Of a stretch of 64,000 nucleotides of DNA, positions 50,369 through 58,660 are shown in pieces. How positions within the stretch are numbered: the stretch's first letter is position 1; every line of letters begins with the position of its first letter. The translations under genes were made by a program, and so were the position numbers. The DNA is from Microbacterium halophytorum. GTDB taxonomy: Bacteria; Actinomycetota; Actinomycetes; Actinomycetales; Microbacteriaceae. The stretch spans positions 457,592 to 521,591 of the forward strand of contig NZ_KZ672982.1 of assembly GCF_002970975.1 (NCBI RefSeq), in the 5' to 3' direction. Under the pieces are notes generated by a model. The model saw only the letters and a program-made list of their open reading frames with translations, was not told the origin of the DNA and did no database searches.

Positions 50369-52017
<1,649 letters not shown>

Positions 52018-52021
<4 letters not shown>

Positions 52022-52959
52022 CGTTCTGCCCTCGCCTTCGGGTCAAGGGCGTCGCGCATGGTCTCGCCCAGCATGATGAATGACAGCACCGCCAGCGTCA
52101 GCGCCGTCGACGGCCACACGAGCGCCATCGGCGAAGTGCGGATGGTCGTCTGCGCCTGACTGATATCGGCACCCCACGACACGGTGTCACCGCCGAGGCC
52201 CACGCCGAGGAACGACAGCACGGACTCCGCGACCATGTTGTTGCCGAGGCCGATGGTCGCGACGACGATGAGCGGCGCGATCGAGTTCGGCAGGACGTGC
52301 ACGAGCAGGGTCTTGAACCGACTCATCCCGAGTGCCAGCGACGCAGTCACGAAGTCGGACTGCTTCACGCGCAGCACTTCGGCGCGCACGATGCGGGCGA
52401 TGCTCGCCCAGCTGAAGCCGCCGATCGCGAAGGCGAGCGTGAGCATCGTGCGGTCCTGCTGCGGAATCACCGTCATCACGACGATCGCCGCGATGATGTA
52501 GGGGATCGTGAAGAAGATGTCGCCGACGCGCGACAGCACCGAGTCGACCCATCCGCCGTAGAAGCCGGCGAGCGAACCCATGACGAGGCCGATCACCGTG
52601 CCGATGAGCGTCGCGAGCAGGCCCACAACGACCGAGGTGCGGGCGCCGAAGACGATGCGCGACCAGACGTCGCAGCCCTGGCGGGTGTAGCCGAGCGGGT
52701 GGCCGGCCTCCGGGCCGCCGTTGCTGTTCATGAGCTGACACGCGCCGCCCGACGGGGCGACGTTCGTGAACAGGTACGGGAAGGCCGCCATGACGACGGT
52801 GAGCAGGGCGACAGCGGCGGCGATCCAGAACATCGGTCGGCGGCGCATATCGCGCCACGCGTCGAGCCAGAGATTGCTGCGCTTCGCACTGACTCGGACC
52901 TGGTCCACGACCAGGTCGGCCGCCTGCGCGGGCGCCACGAAGTGAGCGTTACGAGACAT
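52018..52959 (-). CDS. Peptide ABC transporter permease, DppC type
   Basis: 313 residues: an N-terminal cytoplasmic segment, a first helix at about 45-67, a periplasmic loop, then the BPD_transp_1 domain with five helices. The EAA loop that contacts the ATPase is recognisable as ASLALGMSRFKTLLVHVLPN. It overlaps dppB by 11 bases and the ATPase gene by four, so translation is coupled throughout. Confidence 0.94.
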
Positions 52960-53878
52960 AGCGGATCCTCGGGTCGAGCAGACCGTACAGCAGGTCGATC
53001 AGCAGGTTGATGAACACGTAGACCACGACGAACACGGTCACGAACGACACGATCGTCGGCGCCTCGTGCTTGAGGATCGCCTGGTAGAGCGTGTTCCCGA
53101 CGCCGGGGATGTTGAAGATGCCCTCCGTGACGGTCGCGCCGACCATCAGGATCCCGAACGTCGTGCCGAGATCCGTCACCATGGGGATGAACGAGTTGCG
53201 CAGCACGTGCACGGGGATGACGCGGCGGCGCGGGAGGCCCTTGCCGTAGGCGGTGCGCACCCAGTCCTGGCCGATCGTCTCGATCGTCGACGAACGCATG
53301 AGGCGCATGCTCGTCGCATACACGCTGACCGCGAGAGTCGAGGCGGGCAGCAGCAGGCCGAGCCAGCCGTTGTTCTCACCGACGGTCGGGCTCGCCCAAC
53401 CGAGCACCACGCCGAAGACGTACTGTGCGAAGAAGCCGACGACGAACACCGGGACGGCGATGAAGATCAGCGCGATCACGAGCATCGTGTGGTCGAACCA
53501 ACTGTTCTTGAAGAACGCCGAGAGCGAACCGATCACGACGGCGAGCACGGCCGCCAGGACGATCGCCTCGATCGCGAGCCGGAGCGTGACGGGGAAGGTG
53601 CGTGCAAGCACCTCGCCGACGTCCTGACCGCTGAAGGTCGTGCCGAAGTCCAGGCGGAAGATCCCGCCCAGGTAGTTGAAGTACTGGATGATGAACGGCT
53701 GATCGAGGGCGTACTGCTCCCGGATCTCATCGAGCAGCGCCTGCGGTGGTTGCTTGTCGCCGAACAACGCGGCAATCGGGTCGCCTGGCATGGCGAACAC
53801 CATGAAGTAGATCAGCAGCGTCGCCCCGAGGAAAACGGGGATGACCTGCAGGATCCGCTTGAGGATGTAAAACAGCAC
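52949..53878 (-). CDS. Peptide ABC transporter permease, DppB type
   Basis: 309 residues with six transmembrane helices. The N-terminus MLFYILKRILQVIPVFLGAT is the family standard, and the EAA loop appears as AYGKGLPRRRVIPVHVLRNS. The GTG start has AAGGAGG upstream. It forms the translocation pore with DppC. A strong hairpin lies between it and the binding-protein gene. Confidence 0.94.
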   Translation of the reverse strand: MLFYILKRILQVIPVFLGATLLIYFMVFAMPGDPIAALFGDKQPPQALLDEIREQYALDQPFIIQYFNYLGGIFRLDFGTTFSGQDVGEVLARTFPVTLRLAIEAIVLAAVLAVVIGSLSAFFKNSWFDHTMLVIALIFIAVPVFVVGFFAQYVFGVVLGWASPTVGENNGWLGLLLPASTLAVSVYATSMRLMRSSTIETIGQDWVRTAYGKGLPRRRVIPVHVLRNSFIPMVTDLGTTFGILMVGATVTEGIFNIPGVGNTLYQAILKHEAPTIVSFVTVFVVVYVFINLLIDLLYGLLDPRIRYVS

Positions 53879-53919: not shown

Positions 53920-53958
53920 TGATACGAGGCGGTGGCTGTGAGCCACCGCCTCGTATCA
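53920..53958 (-). terminator. Intra-operon hairpin after the binding-protein gene
   Basis: A perfect 18-bp stem (53920-53937 with 53941-53958) with a GTG loop lies between the binding-protein stop and dppB. Partial termination here, or 3'-end protection, would give the abundant binding protein more transcript than the permeases. Confidence 0.8.
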
Positions 53959-53981: not shown

Positions 53982-55607
53982 TTACTCCCAGGGGCTGATC
54001 TCGTTGGCCTGCTCCCAGAGCTCCACGGCCTTCTCGGGGTTGTACTCCAGGACCTCTTCGCCCTCGAGCTCGTCGGTCCAGCCATCGATCACGGGCGACG
54101 TGAAGTCACTCGCCGGGGTGCGGGTGCCCTGGAAGATCACGTCGGTGATCTCCTCGCGGTTGATCGCCATCGAGATGGCTTGGCGGCGCAGCTGGCCCTC
54201 CTCGTCGGCGCCGAAGTGCTCCTGGTACTCACCGATGGTGAACGACTGGAACAGCGCCGAGGCCTGGTTCACCGAGCGGTCGCCCAGCTCGTCCTCGTAG
54301 GTCTCGAACGCCGAGTCGGGCAGCGTGTCGAGCACGTCGAGGTTGTTCGCGAGCAGGTCGCTGTACGCCGCGTCGAACGTGGCGTAGAACACGAAGCGGA
54401 GCGCGTCGTTCTCCTGCGGGCGCGGGCCGTCGTACGCGTCGTTCTTGACGAGGTCGATCTGGATGTCGTGCTGCCAGCCGTCCTCCGCCATCTTGTACGG
54501 GCCGTTGCCGATCGGGTTCTCGCCGAACGCCTCCATGTCCTCGAACGCCACGTCGGGGAGCGGGTAGTACGCCGAGTAGCCGAGGCGCTGAGCGAAGTCG
54601 GCGGCCGGCTTGTTCAGCGTGACCTCGAAGGTGTAGTCGTCGATCTGGTTCAGACCCGACAGCTCCTCGACGTTCTCGTCCCAGCTGAAGCCCTCGATGT
54701 CCTCGAAGAAGTAGCTGCTGAGCTGGGCGTTGTCGAGCGCGGCGCCGTAGTTCCACGCCTTGATGAAGTTGTCGGCGGTGATCTCCTCACCGTTGCTGAA
54801 CTCCAGGCCCTCGCGGATCTTGATCGTGAGGTGGGTCGGCGAGTCCTGATCGATCGACTCGGCCACGTCGTTCTGGACCGCGCCGGTCTCGGTCTCGTAG
54901 TTCACGAGGCCGGTGAAGAGCGCGTCGAGGACGTTGCCGCCGCCGGTCTCGTTCGTGTTGGTCGGGATCAGCGGGTTCTGGGGCTCCGAGCCGTTGACCG
55001 TGACGGGGCCGTCCGTCGACTTCGTGATCTCCTCGTAGGCCGGGACCGACTTCCAGTTGATCGCGACGTTCTCGACGTTCTCGCTCCAGCCGGCGACGGA
55101 GTTCTGGTACCACAGCGGGATCGCGGGCAGGTCCTGCAGGAGGACCTCCTGCGCCTGCTTGTAGAACTCGTTGGCCTCAGCGGGGTCGGTCGTGCTGATG
55201 CCCTGCTCGATCAGCGAGTCGAACTCCTCCGACGAGTAGTCGCCGTCGTTCGAGCCGGCGTTGGTCGCGTAGAGCGGGCCGAGGAAGTTGTACAGGCCCG
55301 GGTAGTCGGCCTGCCAGCCGGTGCGGAATGCGCTGTCGATCTCGCGGTTCGTGACCTCTTCGCGCAGACCGGCGAAGTCCGGGTACGGAACGCCGACCGC
55401 GTTGATGCCGAGCGTGCCCGAGATCGAGTTGGCGACCGCGTCGACCCAGGCCTGGTGGCCGCCGTCGGCGTTGTACGCAATCCCGAACTCGGGGCCCGCA
55501 GCGGCTTCGTTGCCGCCTTCTTCTTCCGCGGGGCCGCAACCGGTGAGCGCCAGAGCGCCGACACCGATCACACCGAGGCCCGCGAGGGCAAACTTGTTGC
55601 GCTTCAC
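53982..55607 (-). CDS. Peptide-binding lipoprotein with circularly permuted SBP_bac_5 fold
   Basis: 541 residues. Signal peptide and lipobox LTGC (Cys24) are normal. Residues about 39-196 (FGIAYNADGGHQAWVDAVAN, FRTGWQADYPGLYNFLGPLY, DLPAIPLWYQN, VAINWKSVPAYEEITK) are what normally ends family-5 binding proteins. Residues about 199-541 then give the usual beginning (GSEPQNPLIPTNTNETGGGN, the AESIDQD/IREGLEFSNGEEITADN signature, IGNGPYKM) and stop at ELWEQANEISPWE, which normally runs straight into FxIAYNADGGHQ. The gene is thus rearranged head to tail with nothing lost. GTG start with AAGGAG. First gene of the operon; binds peptides outside the membrane. Confidence 0.88.
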   Translation of the reverse strand: MKRNKFALAGLGVIGVGALALTGCGPAEEEGGNEAAAGPEFGIAYNADGGHQAWVDAVANSISGTLGINAVGVPYPDFAGLREEVTNREIDSAFRTGWQADYPGLYNFLGPLYATNAGSNDGDYSSEEFDSLIEQGISTTDPAEANEFYKQAQEVLLQDLPAIPLWYQNSVAGWSENVENVAINWKSVPAYEEITKSTDGPVTVNGSEPQNPLIPTNTNETGGGNVLDALFTGLVNYETETGAVQNDVAESIDQDSPTHLTIKIREGLEFSNGEEITADNFIKAWNYGAALDNAQLSSYFFEDIEGFSWDENVEELSGLNQIDDYTFEVTLNKPAADFAQRLGYSAYYPLPDVAFEDMEAFGENPIGNGPYKMAEDGWQHDIQIDLVKNDAYDGPRPQENDALRFVFYATFDAAYSDLLANNLDVLDTLPDSAFETYEDELGDRSVNQASALFQSFTIGEYQEHFGADEEGQLRRQAISMAINREEITDVIFQGTRTPASDFTSPVIDGWTDELEGEEVLEYNPEKAVELWEQANEISPWE

Positions 55608-55674
55608 AGTTACTCCTTGTGGAAGGGATGGATACGTCCGAAGTGAACGGGTGCGCACCTCGGACTGCCCCGTG

Positions 55675-55703
55675 ACTCTATGCGCTCGCAAGGAATCCGG
55701 CAA
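55675..55703 (-). promoter_or_regulatory. Promoter of the oligopeptide ABC operon
   Basis: On the minus strand TTGCCG (55698-55703) and TAGAGT (55675-55680) are separated by 17 bases, a good sigma-A pair. The predicted leader is about 60 bases. A direct motif pair (GTTAC and TTTAC, 55720-55735) just upstream could bind an activator. Confidence 0.6.
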
Positions 55704-55743
55704 AGCCATCTGCAGAACCGTTACACAGGATTTACACGCTCCG

Positions 55744-55769
55744 CTGGGCAGATTGCGCAATCTGCCCAG
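55744..55769. promoter_or_regulatory. 26-bp perfect palindrome in divergent promoter region
   Basis: CTGGGCAGATTGC and its exact reverse complement abut. It lies in the 318-bp region between the divergent binding-protein and CPBP genes, about 40 bp upstream of the operon's -35. It may be an operator for a dimeric regulator. Apart from the promoter elements nothing else is seen in 55608-55925. Confidence 0.5.
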
Positions 55770-55913
55770 GCGTTGCCGGGTGTGTCTGGGGCTCTCGCTC
55801 AGTTCGGGCGTTGGGGCCCGAGGCAGCCCATGCCCCCTCCGAGCCCGACCGCGCCGGATGGATCGCACGCCAGGTCGGCGCGGCGCCCGCCCAGGCCGCA
55901 TCGGGGCCGCGCG

Positions 55914-55919
55914 TACCCT
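55914..55919 (+). promoter_or_regulatory. -10 element of leaderless CPBP gene
   Basis: TACCCT six bases before the GTG at 55926. Confidence 0.4.
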
Positions 55920-55925
55920 GTCGGG

Positions 55926-56690
55926 GTGAGCGATACCGTGCATCCCGACACTCGATACGCCCGCCGCCGCCTCGGCTGGGAGGTGGGCATCGTCGTCGCC
56001 CTCTCGCTCGGACAGACGGCGCTGTACTCGCTGCTGTCGCTCATCCGGGCCGCCCTGCGCGCGCCGCTCGCCGATCAGACCGCGTCGCTGAACCCGCAGC
56101 AGGCCGAGGAAGCGGTGTGGGATGCGGTGTACCGCGTGCTCGACGTGTTCTTCGACCTGTGTCTGGTCGCGCTCGTGATCTACCTGCTCTGGGAGCCGGG
56201 GCGCAGCGCGTTCCGCCGCATCGGCCTCGACTTCTCGCGCTTCTGGCGAGATGCGGGGCTCGGCGTCGCGCTCGTCGCGGCGATCGGCATCCCCGGCCTC
56301 GGGCTGTATGCCGTCAGTCGCATGTTCGGCATGACGGTGGAGGTGCAGGCCGGCGACCTCGACCAGGCCCTCTGGACGGTGCCGCTCCTGCTGCTCTCGG
56401 CCGCCCGCGCGGGCCTGCTCGAGGAGGTCATCCTGAACGGCTACCTCGTCACGCGGCTCGGCGCGCTGTGGCGGCGCCCGTGGGTCGTCCTCGTCGCCGT
56501 CGCGCTGCTGCGCGGCGCCTACCACCTGTACCAGGGCCCGGCGATGGCGCTCGGCAACGTCGTGATGGGCCTCGTGTTCGGCTGGTGCTTCCTGCGGTGG
56601 CGCCGCACGATGCCGCTCGTCCTCGCGCACGCGTTCATCGACACGATCGCGTTCGTCGGCTACCCCCTCGCCGCGCCCTTCCTCCCCTAA
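55926..56690 (+). CDS. CPBP family intramembrane protease-like protein
   Basis: 254 residues with seven or eight hydrophobic helices and the Abi/CAAX-protease domain in the second half. Motif 1 is LLEEVILNGYL: the two Glu are kept but the usual Arg of EExxxR is Asn. Motif 2 is LRGAYHLYQG with the catalytic His, and motif 3 is LAHAFIDTIAF. Such variants are frequent in actinobacteria. Substrate unknown. Its stop codon runs into the palindromic element at 56688-56755. Confidence 0.85.
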   Translation: MSDTVHPDTRYARRRLGWEVGIVVALSLGQTALYSLLSLIRAALRAPLADQTASLNPQQAEEAVWDAVYRVLDVFFDLCLVALVIYLLWEPGRSAFRRIGLDFSRFWRDAGLGVALVAAIGIPGLGLYAVSRMFGMTVEVQAGDLDQALWTVPLLLLSAARAGLLEEVILNGYLVTRLGALWRRPWVVLVAVALLRGAYHLYQGPAMALGNVVMGLVFGWCFLRWRRTMPLVLAHAFIDTIAFVGYPLAAPFLP

Positions 56691-56755
56691 CTCTTCATTT
56701 CTGGCACATCTCCGCACGCACACACCACGGGAGATGTGCCAGAAATGAAGAGTTA
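56688..56755. repeat. Palindromic element, copy 1
   Basis: A perfect 26-bp inverted repeat (56688-56713 with 56730-56755) around a 16-base loop. The core CTTCATTTCTGGCACATCTCC is shared exactly with copy 2 at 58590-58647. On the plus strand it can act as the terminator of the CPBP gene, whose stop codon overlaps its first bases. Confidence 0.85.
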
Positions 56756-58463: not shown

Positions 58464-58589
58464 TCCGCGGGATTGCGTGCGGGTCGCGCCTCTGTGCTCG
58501 GCCGGGTCGTCCGCTCCACCGCCGCCACCCGCACGCGAAGATCCACATTCCCGAAGCGGCTCGCGTCCGCCGCTCACCGACGTGCAACT

Positions 58590-58647
58590 CTTCATTTCTG
58601 GCACATCTCCGGTGGTAGACACCACCGGAGATGTGCCAGAAATGAAG
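58590..58647. repeat. Palindromic element, copy 2
   Basis: A perfect 27-bp inverted repeat (58590-58616 with 58621-58647) with loop AGAC. It shares 21 bp of each arm with copy 1. The central 16 bases differ but have the same length; here they extend the stem. It lies 13 bp after the gcvP stop and can terminate the gcv operon. Confidence 0.85.
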
Positions 58648-58660
58648 GTTCGGACGCGGA

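Follow-up and report, generated by a model that had tools for sequence, protein, structure and literature searches.

Circular permutation of a DppA-like peptide-binding lipoprotein in Microbacterium halophytorum and its probable recurrence at one loop in related lineages

The DppA-like substrate-binding lipoprotein of Microbacterium halophytorum is a circularly permuted protein, in which the two blocks of a canonical receptor occur in swapped order behind an ordinary lipoprotein signal. We consider it highly probable that the receptor was permuted in place in at least four lineages at the same cut and in one other lineage at a different cut, that the two-lobe fold is retained, and that the lipid anchor has likely moved. 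We lean, if only slightly, towards a fuller account in which in-place permutation occurred repeatedly, at least four times at the same loop and once elsewhere, in every case behind the lipoprotein signal already present and mostly replacing the canonical receptor, because a shift of the lipid anchor from the N-lobe to the C-lobe was favoured in these Gram-positive lineages.

The window analysed is a stretch of 64,000 nucleotides of the M. halophytorum genome, to which all positions refer unless a locus is named. The receptor gene lies on the minus strand at 53982-55607, the coordinates given in the initial annotation, and extends from a GTG start codon at 55607 to a TAA stop codon ending at 53982, encoding 541 amino acids in an intact frame. 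A ribosome-binding site, AAGGAG, is located on the same strand 5 nt before the GTG (55613-55618). The signal peptide (residues 1-24; 55536-55607, minus strand, as are the following segments) is of the type found in canonical Microbacterium examples and ends in the lipobox LTGC (residues 21-24), the C24 of which is invariant in a 32-sequence alignment, so that the protein carries the lipoprotein signal of Gram-positive SBP_bac_5 members. It is followed by an N-terminal linker (residues 25-39; 55491-55535), modelled with a pLDDT under 50 up to residue 34, and by the old C-terminal block, which now comes first (residues 40-196; 55020-55490) and contains W98 and D101 (55305-55316), the equivalents of W442 and D445 in the peptide site of Mycobacterium tuberculosis DppA (MtDppA). 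A five-residue linker, STDGP (residues 197-201; 55005-55019), connects ..EITK, at the old C-terminus, with VTVNGSEPQN, at the old N-terminus, where the old N-terminal block, now last, begins (residues 202-540; 53988-55004). The chain terminates at W540, E541 and the stop codon (53982-53990), in the loop whose sequence resembles ISPW-EGTF-xIAYNADGG in canonical receptors; the earlier observation that the protein ends at ANEISPWE, where its canonical relatives continue into IAYNADGG, is correct.

MtDppA (Rv3666c; 6e3d, 7jls, 8wd9) is a cluster C receptor of canonical order, and alignment with it confirmed the earlier reading that the closing blocks of the family precede the opening blocks after the lipoprotein signal. 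Receptor residues 201-540 align to chain positions 10-357 of 8wd9 and residues 40-196 to positions 360-516; the same swapped-order alignment was obtained with 7jls and 6e3d, and the whole-sequence E-values of five MtDppA entries against the receptor range from 1e-153 to 8e-152. Two residues of the 8wd9 chain are unmatched at the cut and five residues of the receptor link the old termini, which bears out the suggestion that nothing substantial was lost or doubled. The family profile PF00496 matches the receptor with 177.7 bits (curated cut-off 32.4) in one stretch, residues 244-535, that covers profile positions 2-277 of 368 and stops at position 277, where the receptor chain ends. The protein thus departs from the segment order that is canonical for SBP_bac_5/cluster C, and it has the attributes of a natural circular permutation: both segments are homologous to one parent, their order is swapped, the old termini are joined, and the protein is complete. 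Mapped on MtDppA, the new termini fall in the C-terminal half, residues 267-541, as delimited in PMC6751184. MtDppA H131 is a tyrosine in the M. halophytorum receptor, and the NCBIfam equivalog DppA_dipep (E. coli type) is missed by a wide distance (83.3 bits against a cut-off of 1005 bits).

The operon is otherwise ordinary, as first described. Downstream of the receptor on the same strand are genes for a DppB-like permease (52949-53878), a DppC-like permease (52018-52959) and a fused DppD-DppF-like double ATPase (50369-52021); close homology to MtDppA together with this gene order places the system in the actinobacterial dppABC(DF) type, and the gene product is likely the peptide receptor of its own operon. 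A perfect 18-nt inverted repeat (53920-53958, assigned to neither strand) lies in the gap between the receptor and DppB genes; it is possibly a terminator or attenuator and could raise synthesis of the receptor above that of the permease. Immediately upstream of the receptor gene, a divergent gene at 55680-56690 encodes an Rce1-like protein (CAAX protease family), which is matched in 11 of 13 Microbacterium loci (two locus pairs each come from one genome), where its first 60-90 residues are mostly without a match. The surroundings also contain two copies of a palindrome of about 68-76 nt with the half-site CTTCATTTCTGGCACATCTCC, at 56688-56755 and 58581-58656; genome-wide, with up to two mismatches, the half-site occurs 14 times per strand, forming 14 facing pairs, and the reversed control occurs 0 times.

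The permuted DppA-like protein is predicted to adopt the usual two-lobe receptor fold, and models of both cut forms predict one compact protein (pLDDT 87.5 and pTM 0.84 for the first cut, 85.1 and 0.82 for the second). The fold and family matches of the receptor are cluster C members. Sequential structure searches (Foldseek, VIA-align) aligned only residues ~196-541, the larger block, so closure with the swapped block is judged solely from model confidence. The columns of W98 and D101 are invariant in the 32-sequence alignment, although one protein, L135, lacks the WxxD[YF] pattern. We infer a working two-lobe receptor that still captures peptides, with its lipid anchor likely shifted to the other lobe. 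The initial annotation had supposed a permuted receptor with a displaced anchor and called it unusual; the permutation is genuine and the anchor probably sits on the other lobe, but the protein is not a lone oddity.

Relatives with the same block order, which had been proposed as a check, were found as a clade of Microbacterium and Arenivirga and as further lineages in the class, comprising Sanguibacter, Aeromicrobium, Bifidobacteriaceae MAGs and a genus labelled g104, which we take to be perhaps Brachybacterium. When 149 genomes of the genus were scanned, 91 had a match at an E-value of 1e-60 or better; six of the 149 match residues 1-541 in one piece, and in the other 85 the match begins only at about residue 192-206, with the C-block as a separate later piece where it is above the cut-off. 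The named permuted cases include Microbacterium halotolerans (G142), Microbacterium sp. G2-8, Arenivirga flava (G282) and Microbacteriaceae PS02343. Classification by block order gave 11 permuted, 90 canonical and 8 unclassed among 109 loci, and 27 permuted (26 distinct) and 94 canonical among 121 proteins; in a non-random sample formed by the best 120 hits of each of three database searches, 59 of 355 proteins are permuted (58 distinct). A 171-residue probe that spans the junction of the old termini, with the cut not inside it, detected five genomes among 398 of the family and 11 among 396 of the order. For a junction profile, full coverage was seen in three of the 394 genomes of the class, and the remaining 32 listed are half matches of the kind canonical proteins also give; at a stricter cut-off the profile detected 1 of 296 genomes of the phylum, that of M. 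halophytorum itself.

Within other groups, genus g213 (n=49) has four genomes with a one-piece match, 41 with only the larger block in one piece and four without a match; one of the former (G1184) contains a protein stretch identical to that of Aeromicrobium marinum over 98% of the query. The permuted form is present in 8 of 111 genomes of family f9, among them Sanguibacter antarcticus (G1673), and in 2 of 18 genomes of family f20, which includes the Bifidobacteriaceae MAG G772. One f20 genome, G670, has three permuted receptors (L138, L139, L226). DppB and DppC lie downstream of L138; DppB was not found beside L139, nor on the stretch examined for L226. The identity of L226 to the M. halophytorum receptor is only about 35%, so the permuted form has likely been duplicated and has diverged in this genome. 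The 49 genomes of genus g104 include 27 one-piece matches (partial in G681, G909 and G927), five canonical forms, two permuted forms in two pieces and 15 without a match. Four permuted copies in this genus are damaged: those of G947 and G921 (L160, L161) are split into two pieces, that of G909 (L169) is frameshifted, and that of G681 (L132) has its start out of frame.

The breadth of this distribution settles whether the swapped order could be an assembly or sequencing artefact at the receptor locus, a worry that the initial annotation had raised and that the draft state of the M. halophytorum genome (3.33 Mb in 20 contigs) makes understandable. The same order occurs in many other genomes, including several that consist of a single contig (G589, G918, G723, G1184, G1315), and the matched stretch of these genes is without an internal stop codon; misassembly is thus rejected, and we give an artefact a negligible chance. 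Recurrence of the order at high identity in other genomes likewise excludes chance. It is also very unlikely that the permuted gene is a relic encoding a decaying or non-functional receptor. The damaged copies in genus g104 would fit such decay, but the frames are long and conserved, the ligand residues and the lipobox are invariant over 32 rows, the models are confident, and the operon is kept; nor does the M. halophytorum genome hold a second close copy, the 11 other matches comprising ten at 22-39% identity and one of 42 residues at the signal peptide. The permuted gene is usually the first of the same dpp operon as in canonical relatives.

The chain is nearly always cut at one position. 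Among 97 rows with the first cut (not all distinct), 92 end 0-2 residues past the aromatic residue of the loop, three end 3, 4 or 7 residues past it, and two fall outside the pattern. The C-termini read ..ANEISPWE, ..AEAISKF or ..ADAISQW, the sequences after the N-terminal linker begin with FxIAYNADGG or LTLAYNSDG, and the cut can be written ..ISPW|EGTFxIAY... Across permuted groups, the old termini are joined by similar linkers, which are five residues long in several of these groups. A second cut was found in a single genome, G166 (locus L115), where the protein begins ..NAFRTGW and ends ..DFAGLRTEVNDAKKAVRAAAG; this cut is ~50 residues beyond the first, with the junction of the old termini unchanged. 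The sole congener of G166 examined, G247, has the canonical order, with 71% identity over the larger block, and the best 120 database hits of L115 include no permuted protein other than its own record. In four first-cut proteins, each from a different group, the PF00496 match stops at profile positions 277-279; it stops at 326 in L115 and reaches 366 in a canonical congener of M. halophytorum. In the genus of G166 (g19), a putative further gene for a binding-protein-like lipoprotein is situated directly upstream of the DppA gene in both the permuted genome and a canonical one; the matches to this upstream gene are weak (L115:3430-4500, E 0.025; L154 near 2258-2434, E 0.039).

For phylogenetic analysis, all sequences were rotated to one order before tree building; the broken genes L160, L161 and L169 were kept out of the tree set, L132 was retained as read (it forms a long branch in the tree of the cut columns), and some long-branched rows were dropped from later trees. 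A quick tree of 81 rows and an enlarged quick tree of 80 rows each require six changes between canonical and permuted states. A careful tree of 54 rows also requires six, at least five of which are forced by starred branches, and a single change sufficed in 0 of 200 bootstrap trees. The group of Microbacterium and Arenivirga (MB) is nested within successive canonical Microbacterium lines, the g104 group (F3) adjoins canonical members of its own genus, the Aeromicrobium group (F45) is placed among canonical congeners, and L115 falls among canonical Protaetiibacter-like proteins; the remaining permuted groups are F9 (Sanguibacter-like) and the F20 MAGs. Approximately unbiased (AU) tests, whose p-values are post hoc, as naming of the groups followed inspection of the first tree, rejected a single clade of all first-cut forms (p 1.8e-78) as well as MB+F3 (2.6e-86), MB+F9 (7.5e-9), F3+F20 (2.3e-5), F45+F3 (1.5e-79), F45+MB (1.6e-79), F45+F9+F20 (2.5e-139) and MB+F9+F20 (8.2e-6). 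Only F9+F20 was not rejected (p 0.40); the tally of eight rejections in nine covers the finished tests, with the joins F9+F20+F3 and F3+F9 outside it.

The initial annotation had reasoned that canonical family members sharing this block order throughout the clade would count against a permutation. Locally the order is indeed shared; given the canonical order of both near and outer relatives, this sharing dates the event and does not refute it. The opposite polarity, in which the permuted order is old and the canonical one came back many times, draws on the fact that parsimony counts carry no direction by themselves. We regard it as more remote still than decay of the gene: a single gain of the permuted order would need 11 losses, both the outgroup locus L104 (Austwickia) and MtDppA are canonical, and the permuted Microbacterium clade lies inside successive canonical lines.

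The trees could also mislead if the permuted form had arisen once, spread horizontally and then been converted by the canonical copy of each host, so that they reflect host lineages. The shared cut and the similar five-residue linkers in several groups speak for such a history, as does the possible common origin of F9 and F20 in the AU test. Conversion should spare the columns adjacent to the joints, but those near both joints still give six changes, at least four of them forced; the columns at the joint of the old termini, taken separately, give six with three forced, and those at the cut six, of which starred branches force two. Both halves follow the host lineage (six changes in the N-half tree and seven in the C-half tree, the extra one placing the permuted subclade P0016/P0037 beside canonical rows), as do the signal peptides compared, whose type is common to both orders in the examples from four groups with canonical sisters: VKRNK.AL.GL in Microbacterium, SRR.FG in g104, MRL.RR.R in g213 and VK.K.LALGLAAG in the L115 group. 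The signal does vary inside permuted clades, as in Arenivirga and in P0248 and P0251. The DppB+DppC tree requires five changes, and L115 is cut elsewhere. The junction-proximal trees thus disfavour spread followed by conversion, which we judge unlikely. A mobile C-block that moves between lineages was considered too and was rejected on the seven changes that the C-half tree itself needs.

The simplest reading is therefore that of at least five in-place permutations, at least four at one loop and one, in a single genome, at another. Provided that gain is more likely than a repeated return, the trees support separate permutation at the same cut in at least four lineages, namely MB, g104, Aeromicrobium, and Sanguibacter with the Bifidobacteriaceae MAGs, the last two of which may represent one origin or two. 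The likeness of the linkers across groups is the main fact against full independence of these origins; a constraint on the turn would explain it.

Mechanistically, the permuted gene was probably formed in place, through tandem duplication and fusion followed by trimming behind the resident signal, which put the old C-terminal 157 residues first behind the signal type of each lineage. The lobes would then close on a peptide for delivery to DppBC. Reuse of the same loop may have any of three mutually compatible causes: the loop may tolerate chain ends, the old ends may be near enough to be bridged by a short turn, or a lipid anchor on the C-lobe may be useful. A tandem or half-trimmed intermediate, sought as had been suggested, was absent from the 355 proteins and 90 loci, and no remnants of a duplicated copy were seen beside the gene in the 90 loci checked. 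Six loci gave extra hits: L115 its own second piece and the weak upstream match, L169 its frameshift, L154 the weak match noted above, L200 a match (E 1.4e-6) outside its gene, and L024 and L132 matches with E-values above 5. Six canonical genes gave no clear sign of a hot spot of DNA microhomology shared by the N-terminal linker and the cut, a seventh, L154, having been left out when its cut motif was not found. L016 alone stood out at the cut, with a 10-nt match, as long as those in 4% of its gene windows, and L193 has a 10-nt match between its linker and the C-terminal window, where its gene windows reach 8; short matches may have had a role in single cases. Crude dN/dS values of 0.53-0.65 for three permuted pairs and 0.29-0.60 for three canonical pairs are not informative, as these genomes are GC-rich.

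As a rule, natural circular permutations are deduced by comparing distant relatives and are taken for ancient events that happened once. Permuted proteins are already known, and so is one family of permuted receptors. Swaposins, DNA methyltransferases and transhydrogenases are permuted with the fold kept, and duplication with trimming is one of two main models of their origin, as set out in PMC3320104; compared with the cases treated there, several related DppA lineages seem to reach one cut separately within one operon context. The closest precedent is TpMglB-2 (Tp0684) of Treponema pallidum, a permuted sugar receptor designated 'Type Ic / Cluster Bc' (PMC4990184). Both are naturally permuted lipoprotein receptors, the two-lobe architecture being only predicted for the DppA-like one, but TpMglB-2 is a cluster B glucose receptor and the Microbacterium protein matches cluster C. 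The permuted part of TpMglB-2 is poorly conserved, whereas the DppA-like blocks are up to ~77% identical to canonical relatives. In the excerpted text of the same paper, TpMglB-2 forms two clades that, in the view of its authors, may be shared through horizontal transfer, and that excerpt makes no mention of repeated origin, whereas the DppA-like form seems to recur. The authors consider that the permutation may have been an adaptation to membrane anchoring, which by analogy makes the anchor idea attractive for the reuse of the DppA loop (PMC4990184). The top-ranked entries of searches in the open-licence literature described neither a DppA or other cluster C receptor with permuted order nor repeated permutation of one receptor at one loop.

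Canonical L014, from Microbacterium and relatives, has the ordinary order of N-block then C-block and is 76.5% identical to the permuted receptor in the N-block and 75.3% in the C-block; in the loci compared, canonical Microbacterium-type receptors have the same signal peptide type and operon as the permuted form. Family annotation hides the permutation: such proteins are recorded as normal binding proteins whose domain hit is truncated. The coexistence of permuted and canonical forms that are up to ~77% identical per block, in the same operon and with one recurrent cut, allows direct tests of what permutation costs or brings to a working receptor, of its genetic origin, and of the role of the anchor point in docking to the permease. 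If repeated in-place permutation is true, these receptors would constitute a natural experiment, run several times over, in fold topology and tethering.
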